From an uncultured Selenomonas sp. (GTDB lineage Bacteria; Bacillota; Negativicutes; Selenomonadales; Selenomonadaceae): 64,000 bases of DNA. The translations under genes were made by a program, and so were the position numbers. The notes below the pieces were generated by a model that did not search any database, was not told where the DNA came from, and saw only the letters and a list, made by a program, of their open reading frames with translations. Location: assembly GCA_934202005.1 (NCBI GenBank), contig CAKPXP010000001.1, positions 376,941-440,940 of the forward strand, given 5' to 3'. This document shows positions 20,668-32,064 of this stretch, piece after piece (the stretch's first letter is position 1; every line of letters starts with the position of its first letter).

Positions 20668-22056
20668 ATGTCTATTCTATCATCAAATCATCCCGTTGAA
20701 AACCAAGTATCCAATTCTATCTCTCGCTTTCTTTCAGATTTTCAGGTCATCCGCTTATTCCGTGCCTGTGGCTGCGTCAAGACGAAAGGCATTTCCGTCG
20801 AATTCCTTTTCGCCTACATCCTCGGCAATGCCTTCCGCTCTTCTAGCTTCTACATGCAGCAACGCATGCAGGAGCTGCGGGGCTGCTTTTCCAAGAACAC
20901 GTATTACCGTTTCCTTGCCAATCCTCATGTGAACTGGCTGCATTTCACAACACGACTGGCCGTGAGGATTATCGAGCAGTTCCTGAAGCCACTGACTTCC
21001 GAGAATCGGAGGACGTGCTTCGTCATCGATGATTCTCTTTACGAGCGTGCCGGTTACAAGCGCACAGAGCTTGCGGCTCGTGTATTCGACCATGTATCCA
21101 TGCGATACAAGAAGGGATTCCGCCTCTTGACGCTTGGCTGGACAGATGGCGCTTCCTTCCTCCCTGTGAATTCCGTGCTGTTCTCCTCGACGAAGGACGA
21201 GAACATTCTCGGCAAGAGATGTTCCTTTGACCATCGGACGCTCTCACATAAACGCCAAGAGATGGCATGCGAGAAAGCCACGACTGTCATGATTCACTTG
21301 CTGAAAGAGGCGCTTGATGCAGGAGCTTCCGCTCGCTACGTCCTCTTTGACAGCTGGTTTTCCAGCCCGCGTCAGTTGCTCGATGTTCTTGCGCTCAAGC
21401 TGCATACCATCGCCATGATCAAGCGAAGCTCCAAGCGTTACTATGAGTTTGAGGGAAAACGTATGACCGTCAAGCAGATTTTTGCCGCTTGTAAGAAGCG
21501 GCGCGGGCGTTCCAGGTACCTCCTGTCCGTCCCAGTGAAAATTTCAGCAAAGGACACGGAGGGTCGCGAGGAAACAGCTGAGGCGAGAATTGTCTGCGTG
21601 CGTAATCGTCAGAATCGAAAGGATTGGATTGCCCTCATCAGCACGGATATGAGCCTCAGTGAGGAGGAAATCATCCGACTTTACGGGAGGCGCTGGGACA
21701 TCGAGATGTTCTTCAAGACATGCAAGAGCTATCTGCATCTGCGCAGCTATCACGGGCTGTCCTATGATGTGCTTACCGCACATGTGGCGTTTGTCTTTAC
21801 GCGTTACATGATACTATCTGTGACAAAGCGGAAGGATGAGGATGAGCGCGCCATCGGCGAACTGTTCTATCTGATGGTGAAGGAAATAGCCGACGTGACA
21901 TTTCAGCAGTCCATGATGATTTTGCAGGAGGCGATGTTGGCTAGTATCAAGACAGTGTTTCATGCGACCGATGAGCAGCTGCAAGTAATTGCACAGGATT
22001 TCGTCAACAGGCTACCGGAATATATGCGTAGTGCACTACAAAAGTCTGCGGCTTGA
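20668..22056 (+). CDS. IS4 family transposase
   Basis: A 462-aa DDE transposase. The first Asp lies in CFVIDDSLYERAGYKR (~120), the second in VLFDSWFSSPRQ (~228), and the Glu in the YREK-like RLYGRRWDIEMFFKTCKSYL (~345), the order expected for IS4-group enzymes with an inserted beta-strand domain between D2 and E. The frame is intact and full length, so the element is probably active. SD AAGGAG lies 8 nt before the ATG, inside a possible inhibitory hairpin. Confidence 0.95.
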   Translation: MSILSSNHPVENQVSNSISRFLSDFQVIRLFRACGCVKTKGISVEFLFAYILGNAFRSSSFYMQQRMQELRGCFSKNTYYRFLANPHVNWLHFTTRLAVRIIEQFLKPLTSENRRTCFVIDDSLYERAGYKRTELAARVFDHVSMRYKKGFRLLTLGWTDGASFLPVNSVLFSSTKDENILGKRCSFDHRTLSHKRQEMACEKATTVMIHLLKEALDAGASARYVLFDSWFSSPRQLLDVLALKLHTIAMIKRSSKRYYEFEGKRMTVKQIFAACKKRRGRSRYLLSVPVKISAKDTEGREETAEARIVCVRNRQNRKDWIALISTDMSLSEEEIIRLYGRRWDIEMFFKTCKSYLHLRSYHGLSYDVLTAHVAFVFTRYMILSVTKRKDEDERAIGELFYLMVKEIADVTFQQSMMILQEAMLASIKTVFHATDEQLQVIAQDFVNRLPEYMRSALQKSAA

Positions 22057-22122
22057 TAATGCTTGTTGCTGAGAGCCGTATGATTATGGGAAAAGCTCAT
22101 GTTTTCATGTGGGAAGTTTGAG

Positions 22123-22129
22123 ATATTTA
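22123..22129. repeat. Target-site duplication (right)
   Basis: ATATTTA, the partner of 20529-20535. Confidence 0.8.
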
Positions 22130-22146
22130 GAAGGAGAATGGATCGT

Positions 22147-22542
22147 ATGTTAGGAAATTTTTCGTATTGCAATCCGGCAAAGCTTTATTTCGGCGACAAG
22201 TCGCTGGCATATCTGAACAGCGACGCACGGCATGACGCTCGCGGCCGTCTCACTGCCCTACTACCGCCATATCCTGCCCTACGGCCTGCCGAAGTTCAAG
22301 CGCTTCGCCATCGAGGTCTGGAAGGTCAATCCGGAAGGCAAGACGGATGCGGAGATTGCCGAGGAAGGCCTCAAGGCCATGGAAGCTTGGATGAAGGAAC
22401 TCAGTTTGGCCATGAACATTTCCGAGCTCGGCGCGACAAAAGATATGATCGACGGTATCGCTGATGCTACATTCCTCCTCGAGGGCGGCTAGAAGGTTCT
22501 CGACCGCGAGGAAGTCGTCGCCATCCTGAAGGAAAGTCTGTG
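22147..22542 (+). pseudogene. Iron-containing alcohol dehydrogenase remnant
   Basis: The first ~26 codons (MLGNFSYCNPAKLYFGDKSL...) match the start of butanol-dehydrogenase/YqhD-type Fe-dependent alcohol dehydrogenases. The sequence then jumps in another frame to the C-terminal part (HGMTLAAVSLPYYRHILPYG, ELGATKDMIDGIADATF). At 22490-22492 a TAG replaces the residue before KVLDREEVVAILKESL. Around 230 central codons, including the NAD and Fe sites, are missing. The gene is therefore dead by internal deletion, frameshift and nonsense mutation. It probably once formed an operon with the cupin gene before the IS inserted. Confidence 0.85.
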
Positions 22543-24491: not shown

Positions 24492-25874
24492 ATGCGAAGT
24501 GAGTTCAACCGGCGGAATTTCTTGAAGGCGCTTGGCGGCCTGACGGGGATGGCGGCCGCTGGCGCGTTCCTCAACCGTGACGAGATCCTCTCATTCCTCG
24601 ACCGTGACAAGGCGGCGGAAGAAGCAGGCGAGGCCATGGGGCAGGTCACGCGCCGCTATTTCGCCCCGCTGGGACAGGAGCTGCCGCTGCTCGGCTTTGG
24701 CTGCATGCGGTTCCCTACGAAATTCTCGACTTCTGGACGGGAAATCGATGCGGAGCTCAGCGAGAAAATGATAGATTTTGCCTGTCGTCATGGCATCAAT
24801 TACTTCGATACCGCCTGGTTCTACCACGATGGCAAATCGGAGTCTTCCGTGGGTGAGATGCTGAAGAAATATCCACGCGAGAGCTTTTTTCTGGCAGATA
24901 AGATGCCGACCCCTATGCTTACAGACCTGCCGCAGGCCAAAGAGATCTTTCAAATGCAGCTTGACCGCTGCCAGGTCGCGTATTTCGATACCTACATGCT
25001 CCACTCGCTGAGCAGTCAGGAGGAGTTCGACCGGCTCTATATCAACGAGGGGATCCTCGACTATCTGCGCGAGGAGAAAGCGCAGGGGCGCATCCGCAGC
25101 CTGGGCTTCTCGTTCCACGGCGATGTGCCGTTCTTCTACGATTTGCTGGATCGGTATCCTTGGGATTTCTGCATGATTCAGCTCAATTACGCGGATTGGA
25201 ATGAGCCTGGCGAAGCGCCGTCTGGCAGCCGCCAGGCGGGCGATCTTTACCGCAAGTGCCGGGAGAAGGATGTACCGATCTTTGTCATGGAGCCGGTCAA
25301 AGGCGGCAATCTGGCCAGTCTTTCGGAGGCGGCGGAATCCATCCTGAAAACGCAGCGTCCGGAGGCAAGCATGGCTTCGTGGGCCCTGCGCTGGGTGGGC
25401 TCTCTCGACGGCGTCATCACGCTCAACTCTGGTATGAGCAGTCTCGAGCAAGTCCTCGACAACGTCCAGACGATGATGGATTTTGAGCCGCTTTCAACCG
25501 CGGAAGCGCGGGCCATCCAGCAGACGCTTGGCAAGGTCAGCGACAGCGGAACGCTCCCCTGCACGTACTGCCGCTATTGCGATCCCTGCCCGTACGGCGT
25601 CGATATCGCCTCGGTCTTTCGGATCTACAAGCGCTATGGCGAAGCGGCTGGCTTAGACCTTGCGCATCCCGAGCGGGCAACGGATCGTCAGAAAAAAGCG
25701 TTCTTCACGCATTACAAGAACAATCTGGAACGCTCGCAGCGAGCGTCGCATTGCACGGCCTGCGGTACCTGCCTGCCGCGCTGCCCGCAGCATATCGACA
25801 TCCCGAAGATGGTACGGGCTGTTGATGACCTTGTCCAGCGTCTGGGACGGGAAACGGGAGAGGAGGTGCTCTGA
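24492..25874 (+). CDS. Tat-exported aldo/keto reductase with two [4Fe-4S] sites
   Basis: A 460-aa protein. The N terminus NRRNFLKALGGLTGMAAAGAFL is a twin-arginine signal. The aldo/keto reductase domain follows with a complete catalytic tetrad: Asp and Tyr in NYFDTAWFYHDG (~103-114), Lys in LADKMP (~136), His in YMLHSLS (~170). The C terminus adds ferredoxin-type CTYCRYCDPCP (~357) and CTACGTCLPRCP (~422). Family members reduce carbonyls with NAD(P)H. A Tat signal on such an enzyme suggests folding with cofactor before export and electrons delivered through Fe-S clusters. ATG 24492 follows SD AAAGGGGAG. The next gene starts immediately after its stop codon. Confidence 0.9.
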   Translation: MRSEFNRRNFLKALGGLTGMAAAGAFLNRDEILSFLDRDKAAEEAGEAMGQVTRRYFAPLGQELPLLGFGCMRFPTKFSTSGREIDAELSEKMIDFACRHGINYFDTAWFYHDGKSESSVGEMLKKYPRESFFLADKMPTPMLTDLPQAKEIFQMQLDRCQVAYFDTYMLHSLSSQEEFDRLYINEGILDYLREEKAQGRIRSLGFSFHGDVPFFYDLLDRYPWDFCMIQLNYADWNEPGEAPSGSRQAGDLYRKCREKDVPIFVMEPVKGGNLASLSEAAESILKTQRPEASMASWALRWVGSLDGVITLNSGMSSLEQVLDNVQTMMDFEPLSTAEARAIQQTLGKVSDSGTLPCTYCRYCDPCPYGVDIASVFRIYKRYGEAAGLDLAHPERATDRQKKAFFTHYKNNLERSQRASHCTACGTCLPRCPQHIDIPKMVRAVDDLVQRLGRETGEEVL

Positions 25875-27347
25875 ATGCTTCGGAAAGGACGGATGATCTT
25901 ATCCTCGGGGATGCTGCTCGTGATGGTGCTGACCTTCGGCGGTCTGCTCGCACCAGTGCTGCCGCACTGGCAATTCCTGCCGGCGCTTCTCGCGGGGAAT
26001 GTCCTCGCCTTGGCACTGATCCTCGCGGTGACGTTCCTCTTTGGGCGCGTGTATTGCAGTGTGCTCTGTCCGCTCGGCATCGGCCAGGATCTCGTGATCT
26101 GGCTGTCAGGAAGGCGTAGGAAAAAGCGCCGTTCGTTCTCTTTTACACGCGAACGGCGCGGCCTGCGCTACGTTGTCTTGCTGCTGGCAGGATTGTCCCT
26201 GCTCTCTGGATATACGCTCTTGCTCGAGCTGACCGAGCCGTACAGCATCTTTGGGCGCATCCTCAATGATCTGCTTGCGGTACCGGTATCCTATGGATGG
26301 AACGGTTTCGTGGACATCAGTGAACGATACGATTGGCTGCCGATGGTGATGAAGGCAGAGGTGCAGCAGCCAACTGCATGGGCAGCGGTGCTGGCGGGTG
26401 TTTACTTGCTCGTGCTGGTCGCCTTGGCCTGGCGTCATGGCCGTGCTTACTGCCATACCATCTGTCCGGTGGGGACGCTGCTGGGCACGGTCAGCCGGTT
26501 CAGTGTGTTCCGCCCTATCATGGACGCGGATCGCTGCATCCACTGTGGCGCTTGCGAGAGGCGATGCCTTTCTTCCTGTATTGATGCCAAGCATGGTGTC
26601 ATAGACAGCAGCCGCTGTGTCGATTGCTTTGACTGCCTGACCGTCTGCCCAAAGGAGGCGCTGCATTTTTCTCATTCGCGACGAATGGCAGGAAAGGAGA
26701 CCGTTCCTGAGGATCGACCGTCGTCAGGTGCTATCATGACACGTCGGGAACTGCTCGGCACGGCGGCCCTTGCCGTCGGCACAGTGGCGGCAGGTCTGGT
26801 GCGCAGCAATCCTATCCTCTCAGCGGCTGCAAGTGCTGAGACTGCTGGTAGGGGCGCGGCCATCCTGCCGCCCGGCGCGCAGGATGCGAAGTCTTTTTTT
26901 ACGCGCTGTACCGCCTGTCATCTCTGTGTCAGTCGCTGTCCGAGCGGAGTCCTGTCGCCTGCGGGGATGGAGGACAGTGTCCTGCACCTTTCGCAGCCGC
27001 ATATGGATTTCTCTCTGGGCTACTGTGTTTACAACTGCAATCTCTGCTCCGCGGCCTGCCAGACTGGTGCAATCCGCCCGCTGCCCTTGGCGGAAAAGCA
27101 GCAAACCAAGATTGGCCTGGCCCGCTATGACAAGGAGCAATGCCTCATCACGCGTGATGGCATTGTCTGCGGCAACTGTGCGCGCCATTGTCCGGTGCAG
27201 GCCATCGCGATGACCGAGGAGCGCGACGGGCGCAGCTATCCGGTCGTCGATGACGCAGCCTGCATCGGCTGTGGCTCCTGTGAATATCATTGCCCTGCGG
27301 AACCGGCTGCGATACGCATTTTCCCCATGCGAGAATCGATGCAATAG
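25875..27347 (+). CDS. NapH-NapG-like polyferredoxin fusion
   Basis: A 490-aa membrane Fe-S protein. The N-terminal half is NapH/CcoG-like: about four membrane helices, two CX3CP motifs (YCSVLCPLG ~60, YCHTICPVG ~192) and cytoplasmic clusters CIHCGACERRC (~219) and CVDCFDCLTVCP (~247). A second twin-arginine segment, TRRELLGTAALAVGTVAAG (~290), leads into a NapG-like half with CTACHLCVSRCP, CVYNCNLCSAAC, CGNCARHCP and CIGCGSCEYHCP. In Nap systems NapH and NapG pass quinol electrons to the periplasm; here both are one chain. It probably feeds the co-transcribed aldo/keto reductase. It starts at the base after the reductase stop codon. Confidence 0.88.
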   Translation: MLRKGRMILSSGMLLVMVLTFGGLLAPVLPHWQFLPALLAGNVLALALILAVTFLFGRVYCSVLCPLGIGQDLVIWLSGRRRKKRRSFSFTRERRGLRYVVLLLAGLSLLSGYTLLLELTEPYSIFGRILNDLLAVPVSYGWNGFVDISERYDWLPMVMKAEVQQPTAWAAVLAGVYLLVLVALAWRHGRAYCHTICPVGTLLGTVSRFSVFRPIMDADRCIHCGACERRCLSSCIDAKHGVIDSSRCVDCFDCLTVCPKEALHFSHSRRMAGKETVPEDRPSSGAIMTRRELLGTAALAVGTVAAGLVRSNPILSAAASAETAGRGAAILPPGAQDAKSFFTRCTACHLCVSRCPSGVLSPAGMEDSVLHLSQPHMDFSLGYCVYNCNLCSAACQTGAIRPLPLAEKQQTKIGLARYDKEQCLITRDGIVCGNCARHCPVQAIAMTEERDGRSYPVVDDAACIGCGSCEYHCPAEPAAIRIFPMRESMQ

Positions 27348-27413
27348 GTGCTGTCATATAAGCCCTTTTGGTTAGTGATGATATGAGGCAAAAGGAGGAA
27401 TCCCAGAAGAATC

Positions 27414-28529
27414 ATGAATCGACGGACTTTTATCTTAGGCGGTCTCGGACTGTTAGGCGCAGCTGCGGCGGGCGGCGCTGGCTATCTGCAATCGCCGCGC
27501 TTCGGGCGGCCGTTTCGGCCCGAGCGGCTGGCGCGCGTGCAGGCATCGCCGCATTACATCAATGGCCGCTTTGAATGCCTTACACCTGTGCGCGTTATGG
27601 AGGGGAATGAAGAGAGCTTCCTGACGGGCTGGCTCAAGTATTTCCTCGAGGACAAGACGGGGCGCACGCCGGACGCGCCGCTGCCGAGCAAAAAGACGGA
27701 CTTATGGGCGCAGTGTCAGGACGAGGACTTCGCCGTCTGGATGGGGCATTCGAGCTTTTACCTGCAGATTGCCGGTCGGCGCATCCTCATCGATCCGGTC
27801 TTCAGCAGCTACGCCTCGCCCGTCTTTTTCGCCAACCGCGCCTTTCTGGGCAGCAATGTCTACACAGCGGCGGATATCCCGAAGGTCGATATCCTGATTA
27901 TGAGCCACGACCACTGGGATCATCTCGACTATCCGACCATTCTCTCGCTCAAGGATAAGATACGGGACATTGTCTGTCCCTTGGGCGTCGGCGAGTATTT
28001 TGAAGCCTGGGGCTTTGCTCCCGAGCAGCTACATGAGGAGGATTGGGATACGGACATCGAGGTGTATCCTGATTTTCATGTGCATGTGCTGCCGTCTCAG
28101 CATTTCTCAGGCCGTCTGCTCACGCAAAACGCGACGCAGTGGGCCTCGTTTGCCATCGTGACGGCGCAGCGCAAGGTGTATTACAGCGGCGACGGTGGGT
28201 ATGGCGCACATTTCCGCACCATCGGCGAACAGTTTGGCGGCTTCGACCTGGCCTTGCTGGAAAACGGTCAATACGACCGTCAGTGGCACCGCATCCACAT
28301 GCTGCCGGACGAAACGGCGCAGGCGGCCACGGATCTGCGGGCCCGCTATGTCCTGCCCGCACACAATTCCAAATTCGCGCTCGCCCGCCATACCTGGCAG
28401 GCGCCGATGCAGGATCTGGCGACAGCCAGCAAAGGCGCCGCTTGGCACCTGCTGACACCCGAGATAGGGGAAAAGATTCCTTTGTGGGCACCAGATGGAT
28501 TTCCCGAGTGGTGGAATCGCACGGAATGA
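27414..28529 (+). CDS. Tat-exported metallo-beta-lactamase-fold hydrolase
   Basis: A 371-aa protein. A Tat signal opens it (NRRTFILGGLGLLGAAAAGGAG). The UlaG/NAPE-PLD-like MBL domain has WMGHSSFYLQIAGRRILIDP (~105-124), the metal motif SHDHWDHLD (~164-172), a later His in LPSQHFSGR, Asp in YYSGDGGYG and a last His in VLPAHNSKF. Zn-dependent hydrolase of this branch; the substrate is unknown (phosphodiester or lactone-type in relatives). SD AGGAGGA is ~16 nt upstream, further than usual. It is third in the operon with the reductase and fusion gene, ending at a strong terminator. Confidence 0.9.
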   Translation: MNRRTFILGGLGLLGAAAAGGAGYLQSPRFGRPFRPERLARVQASPHYINGRFECLTPVRVMEGNEESFLTGWLKYFLEDKTGRTPDAPLPSKKTDLWAQCQDEDFAVWMGHSSFYLQIAGRRILIDPVFSSYASPVFFANRAFLGSNVYTAADIPKVDILIMSHDHWDHLDYPTILSLKDKIRDIVCPLGVGEYFEAWGFAPEQLHEEDWDTDIEVYPDFHVHVLPSQHFSGRLLTQNATQWASFAIVTAQRKVYYSGDGGYGAHFRTIGEQFGGFDLALLENGQYDRQWHRIHMLPDETAQAATDLRARYVLPAHNSKFALARHTWQAPMQDLATASKGAAWHLLTPEIGEKIPLWAPDGFPEWWNRTE

Positions 28530-28581
28530 TTGGGTGTGTAAAGACATCCATCACTTACCATCTTGCAGAATGATGGGAATA

Positions 28582-28614
28582 GAAAATCTCCCTCATAGTT
28601 TGAGGGAGATTTTC
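28582..28614. terminator. Bidirectional terminator
   Basis: GAAAATCTCCCTCA (28582-28595) pairs perfectly with TGAGGGAGATTTTC (28601-28614). It lies between the MBL hydrolase and the convergent LysR remnant. Confidence 0.85.
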
Positions 28615-28634
28615 GTATCCAATCGGCGCTTGCT

Positions 28635-29542
28635 TCATATTTTATCATTTGAGGATTCATGGTCCACGCGTTTCTTTAGTTCTTCGAGGAAGGTGCGGCA
28701 GGATTTCGAGAGCAGGCGGTATTTCTTCCAGACGACGACGGCGCGCAGTGTGAGGGCTGGCTGAAGCGGGACGAATTTCAGGTGACCGGTATCGAGCTGC
28801 AGCAGGCCGTCGATGCCGAACGCGTTCGCGATGCCGGTCCGGACGAAGTGTGAGGCGTTGCCGATGAGGTCGAAGCGGCCAACGGTGTGCATCGTTTCGG
28901 CGGTCACTTTGCCAGCGGACCATTGCGCGAGGCTGAAGGAGTTGGCAGTTTGGCGCGATGAGCCGAGCAGCGGCATCTCGCGCAGATCTTCCGGTGTGAT
29001 GCCGTCTTTTTGAGCCCACTCACTGTCGTCGCGCGTCACGATGCCGACGCGCATCTCCTCGGGCAGGCGGATGAAGTGGTAGTGCTCGACATTGAATGGT
29101 TCGATCATCAAGGCGAAGTCGATGAGGCCGTGCGCGAGTTTTTCCTCGACGATATCGGCATTGCCCGTGAAGAGCTCGACGGTCAGGCGTGGGTAGCGTC
29201 TGTGCAGCTCGGCGAAGAGGTCGGCGAGGATGTGCATGGCATGCGTCTCGCCCGCACCAATGCGGATGCAGCCCGAAAGATCGATCGTGTCATTTTTTAT
29301 TTCATCCTCGGTCTGATTGACGAGTGCGAGGATTTCCTCGGCCCTCTGGCGCAGGTGCATGCCGTCCTCCGTCAGCAGGGTGCTGCGGCTCGTGCGCGTG
29401 AATAGCTTTTTGCAAGCTCTTCCTCGAGGTTGGCAATCTGGCGCGAGAGCGTCGGCTGCGTCACATGCAGCACATTGGCCGCTTCGGTCATATTTTGCTC
29501 CCGGGCCACAGCCAGGAAGTACGATAACGTGCGGAGTTCCAT
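28635..29542 (-). pseudogene. LysR regulator with a frameshift
   Basis: From ATG 29542 the HTH reads MELRTLSYFLAVAREQNM...VTQPTLSRQIANLEEELAK and then runs out of frame to a stop within 13 codons. The other frame continues from KLFTRTSRSTLLTEDG through a full effector domain to 28635. Adding one A to the A5 tract at about 29409-29413 (minus strand GCAAAAAGC) restores ...EEELAKKLFTRTSRS and a ~302-aa LysR. It belongs to the same subfamily as the amber-interrupted LysR at 15448. Possible explanations are a real 1-nt loss, slippage-type phase variation, or a homopolymer read error. It lies divergent to the flavodoxin operon, the usual target arrangement. Confidence 0.88.
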
Positions 29543-29570
29543 CCCTAATCTACCCCCTTCGGACAACAAA

Positions 29571-29623
29571 AGCATCTGTTTCTATTTTAGGTAGCAGATG
29601 CTTTTTTGACAAGCGTTTGATAG
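29571..29623. repeat. 52-bp hairpin plus AAGCGTTTGATAG repeat, copy 2
   Basis: AGCATCTG (29571-29578) pairs with CAGATGCT (29595-29602), and the hairpin is flanked by A4 and T5. TTGACAAGCGTTTGATA (29606-29622) follows. It lies in the 5' leader of the LysR gene, where on the minus strand it could act as an attenuator. Confidence 0.7.
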
Positions 29624-29750
29624 TTACTATGTATGTTTCCTCAATATAAGTAGAAAACACTCGGTTTTGATTTTGCGCTGTAATAGAACTTTTCTGCCCA
29701 ATGCGGCACAGACAAGTTTGCCATAGAAGAAATGTATGACAAATTTTAAG

Positions 29751-29774
29751 ATATAAGCATTTCACATTGTATAC
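29751..29774 (+). promoter_or_regulatory. ATAAGC motif, site D (upstream of the flavodoxin operon)
   Basis: ATATAAGCATTTCACATTGTATAC resembles site A at 19702-19724 (three mismatches in 22). It is 55 nt before the first gene of the operon and suits binding by the divergent LysR. Confidence 0.5.
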
Positions 29775-29828
29775 GAAAGCGGTTAAGATAGGATCATCCA
29801 AAGAAAATCATATTCGGAGGATGGTGAA

Positions 29829-30047
29829 ATGACGAAGAAGTATCTTCAGGGCGTGTGCGAAGCCGATGCGTGTCGATGTGGGCTGGCGGCGCTGCCAGAT
29901 GATGCCGCGCGTATCTGCTCCCTCAAGCGTCATCGACGCAGGCTCATGACAGTCTTGCATGAGGTGCAGGAAAAGCTCTCCTGCATTGACTACATGATCT
30001 ATGAGCTGGAGTGGAAACAAAAGGAGTGTGGAGCGGATGAAGCGTAG
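29829..30047 (+). CDS. Small protein resembling a MerR dimerisation helix
   Basis: A 72-aa Cys-rich protein with a good SD (GGAGG, 8 nt). The N-terminal third has CEADACRCG. The rest, ICSLKRHRRRLMTVLHEVQ followed by EKLSCIDYMIYELEWKQKE, looks like the long antiparallel coiled-coil helix of MerR regulators (compare the common L..LD.KI..YE pattern). There is no HTH. It may be a truncated MerR effector/dimerisation piece kept as a separate gene, or an unrelated helical protein. It overlaps the next gene by 11 nt, so it is translated within the flavodoxin operon. Confidence 0.65.
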   Translation: MTKKYLQGVCEADACRCGLAALPDDAARICSLKRHRRRLMTVLHEVQEKLSCIDYMIYELEWKQKECGADEA

Positions 30048-30723
30048 GGAGTTCTTGAAACTGACAGGCATGGGCGCCATGACGATATTCCTCAGCGGCT
30101 GCGGCCTTTCAGCCCTGTTGGGACAGGAAAAGGATGCTTCTGGCATGGCAGCGCACGCGAAAGGCGAGATTTCGGGAGGGAAAGAAATGAAAATCGTTGT
30201 GGTCACGAGCAGTCCACATCCGCATAATGAGTCAACGTCGATTTATCTGGCTGACCGCTTTACGAAGGGCGCGGAGCAGGCTGGTCATGAGGTGTTCACC
30301 TTTGATGCGGCCAACAGCGATACGCATCCGTGCCGCGGCTGTGACCAGTGCCATATGGACGGCCCGTGCGTCTGGAAGGACGATATCGAGAACACTTTGA
30401 TGCCGAAGATGCTCGAGGCAGATCTGCTCGTTCTGACGACGCCGCTCTATTACTTCGGCATGTCGGCGCAGCTCAAGACCATCGTCGACCGCTTCTACTC
30501 GCGCATGGGGAAGCTCCACGGCAAGAAATCTATTCTCATCGCGACGGCCTACAACCGCGATGACTGGACGATGTCGGCACTCGTCGATCACTATGATACG
30601 CTCGTTCGTTACATGGAGTGGCAGGATGTTGGCAAGGTGCTCGGTATCGGCTGCGGTTCACGCTCGCTCGTTGAACATTCCAAGTTCGGCGACATGGCGG
30701 AGACGATGGGACGGAACTTGTGA
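30037..30723 (+). CDS. Tat/lipoprotein-type Fe-S flavoprotein (FMN reductase family)
   Basis: A 228-aa protein. MKRREFLKLTGMGAMTIFLSGCG combines a perfect twin-arginine motif with a lipobox Cys (~Cys20). The mature part is a flavodoxin-fold NADPH-dependent FMN reductase/Isf-like domain (MKIVVVTSSPHPHNEST). It has the compact cysteine motif CRGCDQCHMDGPC, which in iron-sulfur flavoproteins can hold a [4Fe-4S] cluster. TTPLYYFGMSAQLKTIVDR is the typical flavin loop. It is probably anchored at the outer face of the cytoplasmic membrane. It overlaps the upstream gene by 11 nt and shares its operon with the DUF4405 and flavodoxin genes. Confidence 0.9.
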   Translation: MKRREFLKLTGMGAMTIFLSGCGLSALLGQEKDASGMAAHAKGEISGGKEMKIVVVTSSPHPHNESTSIYLADRFTKGAEQAGHEVFTFDAANSDTHPCRGCDQCHMDGPCVWKDDIENTLMPKMLEADLLVLTTPLYYFGMSAQLKTIVDRFYSRMGKLHGKKSILIATAYNRDDWTMSALVDHYDTLVRYMEWQDVGKVLGIGCGSRSLVEHSKFGDMAETMGRNL

Positions 30724-30769
30724 TCTGACGGATAACGGTTTGCAATAGGAAGGGATGAGGGGTGAGGCG

Positions 30770-31423
30770 ATGCGATATGGTCTGGATGTGTTGATGATTG
30801 TTCTGCTCGTGGGAGAAATGACGTTTTTCTATTTGCCTCCGCTGTTGCATGAGGTTGTGGGCGTGGCGTTTCTCTTGCCGATGATCTGGCATATTGCGCT
30901 CAACCGCCGCTATGTATCTTCGTTGGGGCATGGACGCTGGAGCGGGCCGCGTGCGCTCAGGCTCCTGCTGAATCTCCTGCTTGCCGCCTCTTGTCTTGCG
31001 TCCATCGTCAGCGGCTGTCTGATTTCGAGTGAGTTGTTCTCGGGCATCGTACCGCTTTCTGTGCGCGGCAATCCGTTGCTCTATCAGCTGCACAGTACGG
31101 CCGCGCGATATTTTCTCGTGCTGGCTGGGGCACATCTCGGCTGGCATCTGCCTGCTTGGTGGCAGCGCGTATCGGGCATCACCTCGCGGCCGTTTTCCGC
31201 CCGTCTGGTCTTGAGAGGATTCTTCATCGTGCTGGGGATCGTTGCTCTTTACGCAGCGCAGCAGGATTGCCTGCTGCAGCGCCTGCAAGGAGCACATATT
31301 TTCATGACGCCGGCGCTTGCCTATCACGGCGCGGGCTATGCCCTGACTCAGGTCGGCATCTTGATTTTGTCCGCGGAGATCGGCTTATTGATATCGTTTT
31401 GGAAAGGAGTGCGTTCCAAATGA
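30770..31423 (+). CDS. DUF4405 membrane protein (cytochrome b-like)
   Basis: A 217-aa protein with about five membrane helices. Histidines in the helices (MIWHIALN, LLYQLHSTAARY, LAGAHLGWHLPAWW) fit the DUF4405 pattern, which resembles b-type cytochromes and may bind heme. That binding is inferred, not shown. It likely passes electrons across the membrane to the exported flavoproteins encoded on both sides. ATG 30770 is preferred because GAGGGG lies 7 nt before it; ATG 30755 is also possible. It overlaps the flavodoxin start in an ATGA junction. Confidence 0.8.
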   Translation: MRYGLDVLMIVLLVGEMTFFYLPPLLHEVVGVAFLLPMIWHIALNRRYVSSLGHGRWSGPRALRLLLNLLLAASCLASIVSGCLISSELFSGIVPLSVRGNPLLYQLHSTAARYFLVLAGAHLGWHLPAWWQRVSGITSRPFSARLVLRGFFIVLGIVALYAAQQDCLLQRLQGAHIFMTPALAYHGAGYALTQVGILILSAEIGLLISFWKGVRSK

Positions 31424-32064
31424 ATCGCAGAGAATTTTTAAAATTGGGCAGTATGGGGCTGATGACGCTGGCGTTTGCTGGCTGCGGCTTTTCCTCGCTG
31501 ACAGGGAATTCGTCCGGTCAGGGCGTTGGCAGTGCCAGCAGCGCGGTGGCTGCTTCAAGCGATGCGGCCAAGACTGGCAGCAAGACGCTTGTCGTTTACT
31601 ACTCGGCGACAGGACGTACCGAACGCGTGGCCAAGGTCATCGCCAAGGAACGTCAGGCAGATATCATGAAGCTCGTGCCTTCGCCGGACTACTCGGAGAC
31701 GGATCTCGACTATAATGATGAGGGCAGTCGTGTGAGCCGTGAGCACAACGATGCCTCGTTGCGCGAGAAGATCCAGCTCGAGAAGGCAGTGCCCGACAAC
31801 TGGTCATCCTACGATACGATTTTCGTCGGCTACCCGATCTGGTGGGGCATCGCGGCTTGGCCGGTCGATGCTTTCGTCAAGGCCAATGATTTTACAGGGA
31901 AACACGTCGTGACGTTCGCGACGGCATATAGTTCGCCGCTCGGCAACAGCGGCAAGATACTCGCTGAGATGGCCGGAGGCAAAGGCCAGTGGCAGGATGG
32001 CACTTGCTTTACTGGGAGCCTCAGTGATGATAAGGTCAGAGAATGGGTGAAATCACTCAAGTAA
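31420..32064 (+). CDS. Tat/lipoprotein-type flavodoxin
   Basis: A 214-aa protein. MNRREFLKLGSMGLMTLAFAGCG is a twin-arginine signal ending in a lipobox. After a Ser/Ala-rich linker (~25-50) comes a flavodoxin domain with the FMN phosphate loop YYSATGRTERVAK (~59-71) and the flavin-stacking FVGYPIWWGIAAWP. Flavodoxins are normally cytoplasmic; an exported, lipid-anchored one implies an extracytoplasmic electron carrier. SD AAGGAG lies upstream. The ATG overlaps the DUF4405 stop codon. Confidence 0.92.
   Translation: MNRREFLKLGSMGLMTLAFAGCGFSSLTGNSSGQGVGSASSAVAASSDAAKTGSKTLVVYYSATGRTERVAKVIAKERQADIMKLVPSPDYSETDLDYNDEGSRVSREHNDASLREKIQLEKAVPDNWSSYDTIFVGYPIWWGIAAWPVDAFVKANDFTGKHVVTFATAYSSPLGNSGKILAEMAGGKGQWQDGTCFTGSLSDDKVREWVKSLK

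Follow-up and report, generated by a model that had tools for sequence, protein, structure and literature searches.

The gene of an Isf-like flavoprotein in a 64,000-nucleotide stretch from an uncultured Selenomonas sp. (GCA_934202005.1, contig CAKPXP010000001.1, positions 376,941 to 440,940 of the forward strand; hereafter the window) contains a predicted internal translation start that is conserved among its relatives in gut bacteria of the Mitsuokella kind. The gene (30037..30723, + strand) encodes a long form of 228 amino acids with a lipoprotein signal of the twin-arginine translocation (Tat) type, and the internal start would give a short form of 178 amino acids that carries no signal (30187..30723, +). 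The dual start is well supported by the comparison of sequences and is regarded as highly probable. It is considered fairly probable that a single gene thereby supplies both sides of the membrane with the flavoprotein, next to a haem cytochrome that would link the two pools, and that duplication has split the two forms in perhaps two lineages (subfunctionalisation). The gene belongs to a cluster (24492..32064) that also encodes an aldo/keto reductase (AKR), a NapH-NapG fusion, a metallo-beta-lactamase-fold hydrolase (MBL), a DUF4405 membrane protein and a flavodoxin; these parts are of known kinds, and the conserved internal start is the new point. The literature searched, subscription papers being outside its scope, contained no account of such a flavoprotein with an internal start, or of this gene set. 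To an earlier note on this DNA, which dealt with the cluster as a whole, are added here the internal start and a split LysR-type gene that parts the cluster into two halves.

Downstream of the Isf signal, the linker of the window protein is encoded by TCG GGA GGG AAA GAA ATG AAA ATC, and a Shine-Dalgarno-like GGAGG (30175..30179, +) lies seven bases ahead of the in-frame ATG at 30187, the codon of Met51. In the predicted structure, residues 1-38 have predicted local distance difference test (pLDDT) values below 50, and the first strand of the core (residues 52-57) follows directly after Met51. The internal start was first noticed because gene calling had started Isf at this site in many relatives; three of the 120 listed homologues are entries of 178 amino acids, one of them named from Mitsuokella multacida (P0248). 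Twin arginines, lipobox and internal Met were recognized together by pattern in 108 of these 120, and two further rows, missed by the core pattern, have all three in their N-termini.

Isf orthologues were taken from the loci under comparison, from a family search and from 60 further regions, and form a subset of the listed matches. A recognisable core was present in 108 rows, 97 of which had an in-frame upstream Tat-like signal, and 94 of the latter were distinct open reading frames (ORFs). The twin arginines are present in 91 of the 94 long forms (RK or RG in 3) and the lipobox in 92. An ATG stands at the start of the core in 89 of the 94, and a Shine-Dalgarno-like block precedes it in 87 of the 89 (68 with GGAGG, 19 with GGGGG, GAGGG or AGGAG; 2 without). 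In the 68, the GGAGG lies 4-10 nt upstream of the ATG (59 at 7 nt, 8 at 8 nt), and the five ORFs without the ATG have no such block either. The linker itself varies in sequence and in length, with 15-33 residues between the lipobox Cys and the Met in the 89 ORFs. The background set comprised 3926 internal in-frame ATGs in 531 called genes from 46 loci; GGAGG precedes 25 of these at the same spacing (0.64%, two of them in Isf genes) and any of the four blocks precedes 64 (1.6%). Exported flavodoxins served as a control and have no start of this kind (0/89); five have an ATG near the start of the core, without the block.

The codons at the site are biased. The first Gly of the Ser-Gly-Gly motif (n = 77) is encoded by GGA in 61 sequences, GGG in 15 and GGC in 1; in the called genes as a whole, 51% of Gly codons are GGC. 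At the other Gly columns of the alignment GGA accounts for 1-24% at 16 of the 17 tested, and for 45% at the neighbouring Gly. The sole GGC at the critical column is found in L307, where the ATG is also lost. When Ser-Gly-Gly is replaced by Ser-Glu-Gly, GGAGG is retained one base out of register, in 8/8 sequences. Because of this codon bias, the retention of GGAGG through the amino acid change and the low background frequency, selection appears to act on the nucleotides themselves at the internal site.

At five loci (L096, L097, L098, L100 and L313) a close second Isf gene, without a signal, adjoins the long one. The internal start of the long copy is intact in 0/5 of these, versus 87/89 elsewhere (Fisher 3.8e-7, a value that ignores relatedness); the ATG is gone in four, and in L313 only the Shine-Dalgarno block is gone. 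Since the five tandem loci fall in two places on the tree, with one weak joining branch, the splitting of Isf into two genes may have happened twice. The Isf pairs of L259, L271 and L294 were considered as tandem copies and rejected as distant FMN_red paralogues (about 75 bits). A carboxymuconolactone-decarboxylase-like protein in L096 (4241-5107) has an N-terminal signal and, around residue 34, an internal ATG preceded by GGAGG.

Two other readings of the internal site were weighed. The GGAGG could be a programmed ribosome pause that aids Tat targeting and not a start, with the long form alone being made; its position some 50 codons into the gene, where the signal would be just out of the ribosome, agrees with such a role. 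A pause is nevertheless decidedly unlikely, as the ATG is conserved alongside, mostly at a spacing of 7-8 nt and next to the first strand, as the GGAGG/ATG pair is missing from the long copy wherever a close signal-less copy adjoins it, and as the exported flavodoxins have no such pair. The opposite reading takes the short cytosolic Isf as the only real product and the upstream frame as an untranslated leader or mis-annotation. It is highly improbable in view of the in-frame Tat-like signal upstream of most core-bearing ORFs, the retained lipobox, the linker length of 15-33 residues and the separate Tat-signalled and signal-less genes of the tandem loci, even though the strong Shine-Dalgarno block at the internal ATG and the 178-residue entries fit it. 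The simplest reading of the sequences is that in most of these bacteria a single flavoprotein is produced for two compartments.

The long Isf has the location signs of an exported lipoprotein and the short form has no signal; both contain the FMN_red domain (PF03358/PF02525). Cys 99, 102, 105 and 111 are invariant in 30/30 aligned rows and form the clustered motif CX2CX2CX5C, in keeping with the Isf type. Fold searches ranked quinone- and azoreductase-type flavoproteins at the top, and the closest sequence relative in the PDB is 7d38, labelled flavone reductase. The DUF4405 gene follows (30770..31423, +; PF14358 at 33.3 bits against a cut-off of 26.7). Its product has the pattern H27-x13-H41 and H108-x13-H122, with each His present in 20-22 of 22 rows and gaps in the remainder, and the earlier note's reading of a cytochrome b-like protein is supported by the family match and the four conserved His, together with the haem b bound by another DUF4405 member according to the available part of PMC11334425. 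The flavodoxin gene (31420..32064, +) overlaps it by ATGA and encodes a Flavodoxin_4 Tat lipoprotein (PF12682 at 123.3 bits against a cut-off of 24; PDB relatives 4j8p, 4ici and 3klb) with identities of 84% to an uncultured Mitsuokella, 82% to Selenomonas bovis DSM 23594 and 79% to M. multacida, which place the window in the Mitsuokella/Selenomonas group. Isf is matched at E <= 1e-20 in 124 of 189 genomes of the family Selenomonadaceae, and among 150 genomes of the class DUF4405 is matched in 39 and the flavodoxin in 88. The two are linked: 24 of the 48 listed DUF4405 matches have a listed flavodoxin match no further than 500 bp away (about 0.08 expected). Of the 36 Isf loci with DUF4405, four (L102, L123, L124 and L248) have it flanked by a cytosolic-type and an exported flavodoxin, as judged by the crude rule mentioned below.

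Signals were called by motif and alignment, and export of flavodoxins by a crude rule. Twin-arginine N-termini are present in AKR (MRSEFNRRNFLKALGG), MBL (MNRRTFILGG), Isf (MKRREFLKLTGMGAMTIFLSGC) and flavodoxin (MNRREFLKLGSMGLMTLAFAGC), and the NapH-NapG fusion has an internal signal of this type (MTRRELLGTAALAVG) from 26736; the signals of Isf and flavodoxin close with the lipoboxes LSGC and FAGC. The four N-terminal signals, the internal one and the two lipobox Cys listed in the earlier note were thus all found in place. The Pfam model TAT_signal matched AKR alone, at 22.6 bits and just below its cut-off of 22.7. In an alignment of the window AKR with 100 of its 120 listed homologues (20 under 430 amino acids were excluded), the two arginines are retained in 99/101 and 94/101 rows. 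The twin-arginine signals of AKR and Isf exceed chance, as they are kept across homologues; among relatives of MBL and flavodoxin the signals vary, with Tat types mixed with Sec or membrane-anchor types.

TatC was matched in 137 of the 150 class genomes, among them the nearest genome compared, which has 24% of the window's sampled 31-letter words. Of 150 listed TatC matches, 10 have a flavodoxin match from the list at a distance of 5 kb or less (0.58 expected), and the ten genomes all belong to one family (f15). The flavodoxin nearest tatC is Tat-type in G032, G064 and G091 alone among the ten, Sec- or anchor-type in G042, G074, G087, G115, G139 and G147, and signal-less in G103. The linkage lends support only to the use of Tat by some of these clusters. 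At L096, L098 and L099 (genomes G091, G064 and G032) tatC lies 65-75 bp from the gene of the Tat-signalled flavodoxin; L096 and L099 also have a NapH-like iron-sulfur protein and a DUF362 protein near tatC, and L096 a TatA-like ORF recognized by eye. The clusters of L091, L096, L110 and L118 have DUF362 proteins whose N-termini contain twin arginines and, in some cases, a lipobox Cys.

The statement that flavodoxins are normally cytoplasmic did not survive a survey of 150 listed Negativicutes matches (the list was seeded with the window protein), in which 99 have an export signal and 51 have none. Of the exported ones 12 are Tat-type, from twelve genomes, and 87 are Sec- or membrane-anchor-type. 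The flavinylation motif [ST]GA[ST] was found by pattern in one of the 150 listed matches, and in none of the seven window proteins scanned for it. ApbE was matched in 89 of the 150 class genomes; among the four with the closest flavodoxins there was no match in G030, G053 and G122. Tat was considered as a replacement for flavinylation and this idea was dropped, since most Sec-exported flavodoxins also have no motif; Tat is not simply a substitute for flavinylation. Extracytosolic electron carriers of the Flavodoxin_4, FMN_red and DUF4405 families were published in 2024 (Huang et al., PMC11334425, as far as its available part shows).

The AKR (24492..25874, +; PF00248, PF13746 and PF13183) has two C-terminal 4Fe-4S motifs. 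Its catalytic Asp, Tyr, Lys and His are present in 101/101 aligned rows and its eight iron-sulfur Cys in 100-101 of 101, and its C-terminal stretch aligns weakly with 1ynp. The polyferredoxin gene for the NapH-NapG fusion (25875..27347, +) encodes Fer4_5 and other Fer4 domains; the NapG and NapH models of NCBIfam matched below their cut-offs. AKR is matched at E <= 1e-60 in 43 of 150 class genomes and at full length, signal included, in three (G030, G068 and G081); the other matches align from residue 39 or later, which describes their matched part and not their N-termini. For the fusion, the genomes with a match at E <= 1e-40 are these three of 150 again; it adjoins AKR in each, and in 3/3 a match to flavodoxin or Isf is no more than about 3.1 kb away from the pair. 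As AKR-NapHG occurs in 3/150 genomes and Isf, DUF4405 and flavodoxin are far commoner, it appears to be a rare pair and a unit separate from these three. The fusion is a plausible quinol dehydrogenase. A precedent for exporting an NADP-loaded protein through Tat is glucose-fructose oxidoreductase. The MBL (27414..28529, +; PF12706) has its best relative among solved structures in NAPE-PLD, a hydrolase (PDB 4qn9, E 2.5e-32), and is missing between NapHG and Isf in the M. multacida cluster.

The earlier note had tentatively joined the six genes in a single quinol-driven periplasmic pathway, in which DUF4405 and NapHG would supply the exported AKR and flavodoxin. In its favour, the genes lie side by side in the window and, minus MBL, in M. 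multacida (L006/L114), the rare pair keeps close to flavodoxin or Isf, and NapGH is a known type of quinol dehydrogenase (PMC5449189, in its available part). A single pathway is nonetheless unlikely given the distribution of the genes: the co-occurrence proposed as a check holds for AKR with NapHG and for their proximity to flavodoxin or Isf, but Isf, DUF4405 and flavodoxin are widespread without the pair. MBL also speaks against a single pathway, being absent from the M. multacida cluster and NAPE-PLD-like. The proposed route from quinol to the periplasm is retained in part, as NapHG may plausibly oxidize quinol, but a quinol source for DUF4405 gained no support. Since Isf has two predicted forms, and since cytosolic-type and exported flavodoxins flank DUF4405 at some loci, a cytosolic flavoprotein is at least as likely a donor to DUF4405 as quinol. 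Descent from an ApbE-type flavinylated system, with the motif lost here and Tat a neutral replacement of Sec, is very unlikely: all three families, DUF4405, Flavodoxin_4 and FMN_red, appear in work on flavinylation (PMC11334425, available part), but the motif is nearly absent from the flavodoxin matches listed and absent from the window proteins, and three of the four nearest relatives have no ApbE match.

The explanation preferred as a whole, a two-form Isf, a DUF4405 link and a separate AKR-NapHG pair, is held with moderate confidence. What comparison establishes is an internal start kept among relatives, its loss beside a close signal-less paralogue, linkage between genes and the conservation of residues that would bind cofactors. 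The core of the locus would be a transmembrane flavin electron-transfer unit composed of Isf, DUF4405 and flavodoxin. Initiation at 30037 would yield an Isf that is exported by Tat and held by its lipid anchor at the outside of the cytoplasmic membrane, and initiation at the internal Shine-Dalgarno/ATG (30175/30187) a signal-free Isf with the identical folded domain in the cytosol. As a membrane protein with a predicted six helices and two b haems, DUF4405 could connect the cytosolic with the exported flavoproteins by electron transfer, and the Tat-exported flavodoxin lipoprotein could accept the electrons outside; this relay between compartments is proposed with less confidence than the dual start. 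The flavin mononucleotide (FMN) would be bound non-covalently, Tat permitting export of folded, cofactor-loaded proteins without ApbE. In the AKR-NapHG pair electrons may pass from quinol through NapH and NapG into AKR, by way of its two 4Fe-4S clusters and a nicotinamide that it would hold tightly, and from there to some carbonyl compound.

Several points weigh against this explanation. The 94 long forms were selected for a Tat-like signal (97 of the 108 core rows had one), and the two forms are predicted from sequence. L278 retains the Met without a Shine-Dalgarno block and L307 has lost both the ATG and the block, and neither has an adjacent close copy in its stretch. Genome G142 combines an intact long Isf (L312) with a signal-less gene located on a different contig (L314). 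The Fisher value assumes more independence than there is, the sequences being related and four of the five tandem loci coming from one family. The predicted structure of DUF4405 is of low confidence (mean pLDDT 65), though it contains six long helices. The 94 Isf loci show DUF4405 in 36, flavodoxin in 44 and neither in 42, counts which cover stretches of often just 1.5-2.5 kb on each side, and G122 has DUF4405 and flavodoxin without an Isf match. Because of these 42 loci and of G122, the parts of the relay, if it exists, would often be encoded at separate places. Sec-type exported flavodoxins without the flavinylation motif are common, and the fourth of the nearest genomes, G001, has an ApbE match.

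If correct, the two-form Isf would be a clear instance, in bacteria, of a protein sent to two locations through alternative translation starts, and the duplications a natural experiment that separates the forms. Other genes may have dual starts as well, and annotating one start for such a gene would discard half of its biology. The same flavoprotein on both sides would offer a simple idea of how electrons cross the membrane through DUF4405 cytochromes, and Tat export of cofactor-loaded proteins would be one route to flavoproteins outside the cell in genomes without ApbE.

Between MBL and Isf lies a LysR-type regulator gene split by a frameshift (28635..29542, - strand; PF03466 on the C-terminal part), whose helix-turn-helix part and ligand-binding part are read in different frames. 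Its relatives in L003, L006, L112 and L113 are open frames of 320-346 codons, and the split gene could be a pseudogene or a sequencing error. A small Cys-containing ORF (29829-30047, +) overlaps the start of the long Isf; it has no Pfam match and resembles, by eye, a MerR-type C-terminal helix. Upstream of the cluster (20668-22492) a transposase-like ORF, recognized by eye, is followed by a short remnant, the start of which resembles, again by eye, an alcohol dehydrogenase-like gene that is full length (389 amino acids) in L114 of M. multacida. A second DUF4405-flavodoxin piece of M. multacida is found in L114 (17906-18593), both genes apparently truncated at the junction.

The iron-sulfur flavoprotein Isf of methanogens is a cytosolic protein with an FMN_red fold and clustered Cys. 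The fold and the clustered Cys motif are common to it and the Isf described here, which differs in being a Tat lipoprotein with an internal start. The exported flavoproteins of Huang et al. 2024 (PMC11334425, available part) share with the present locus the DUF4405, Flavodoxin_4 and FMN_red families and a DUF4405 with four His and haem b; here the signals are of the Tat type, the flavinylation motif is absent, three of four near relatives have no ApbE match, and the FMN_red gene has an internal start. Archaeal DUF4405 was likewise placed in the cytochrome b family through PF14358 by profile search (PMC5898192), and the part of that description available includes no flavoprotein partner. In the flavinylation-associated systems of Meheust et al. 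2021 (PMC8238504, available part), a NapH-like membrane iron-sulfur protein is proposed to pass on electrons from a donor, probably quinol in some; the NapH described here is fused to NapG, paired with a Tat-exported AKR and without an FMN-binding domain. The dual Sec-Tat polyferredoxin of Tooke et al. 2017 (PMC5449189) has, in the part seen, the same NapH part, internal Tat signal and NapG part outside; here the fusion is paired with AKR, and its arrangement is read from domains and signal, the topology being putative. MsrPQ also combines a haem b membrane protein with a Tat-exported partner (PMC11334425 and PMC5449189, available parts), and the resemblance of DUF4405 to MsrQ has been published; the partner in the present locus is a flavoprotein rather than a molybdenum enzyme.

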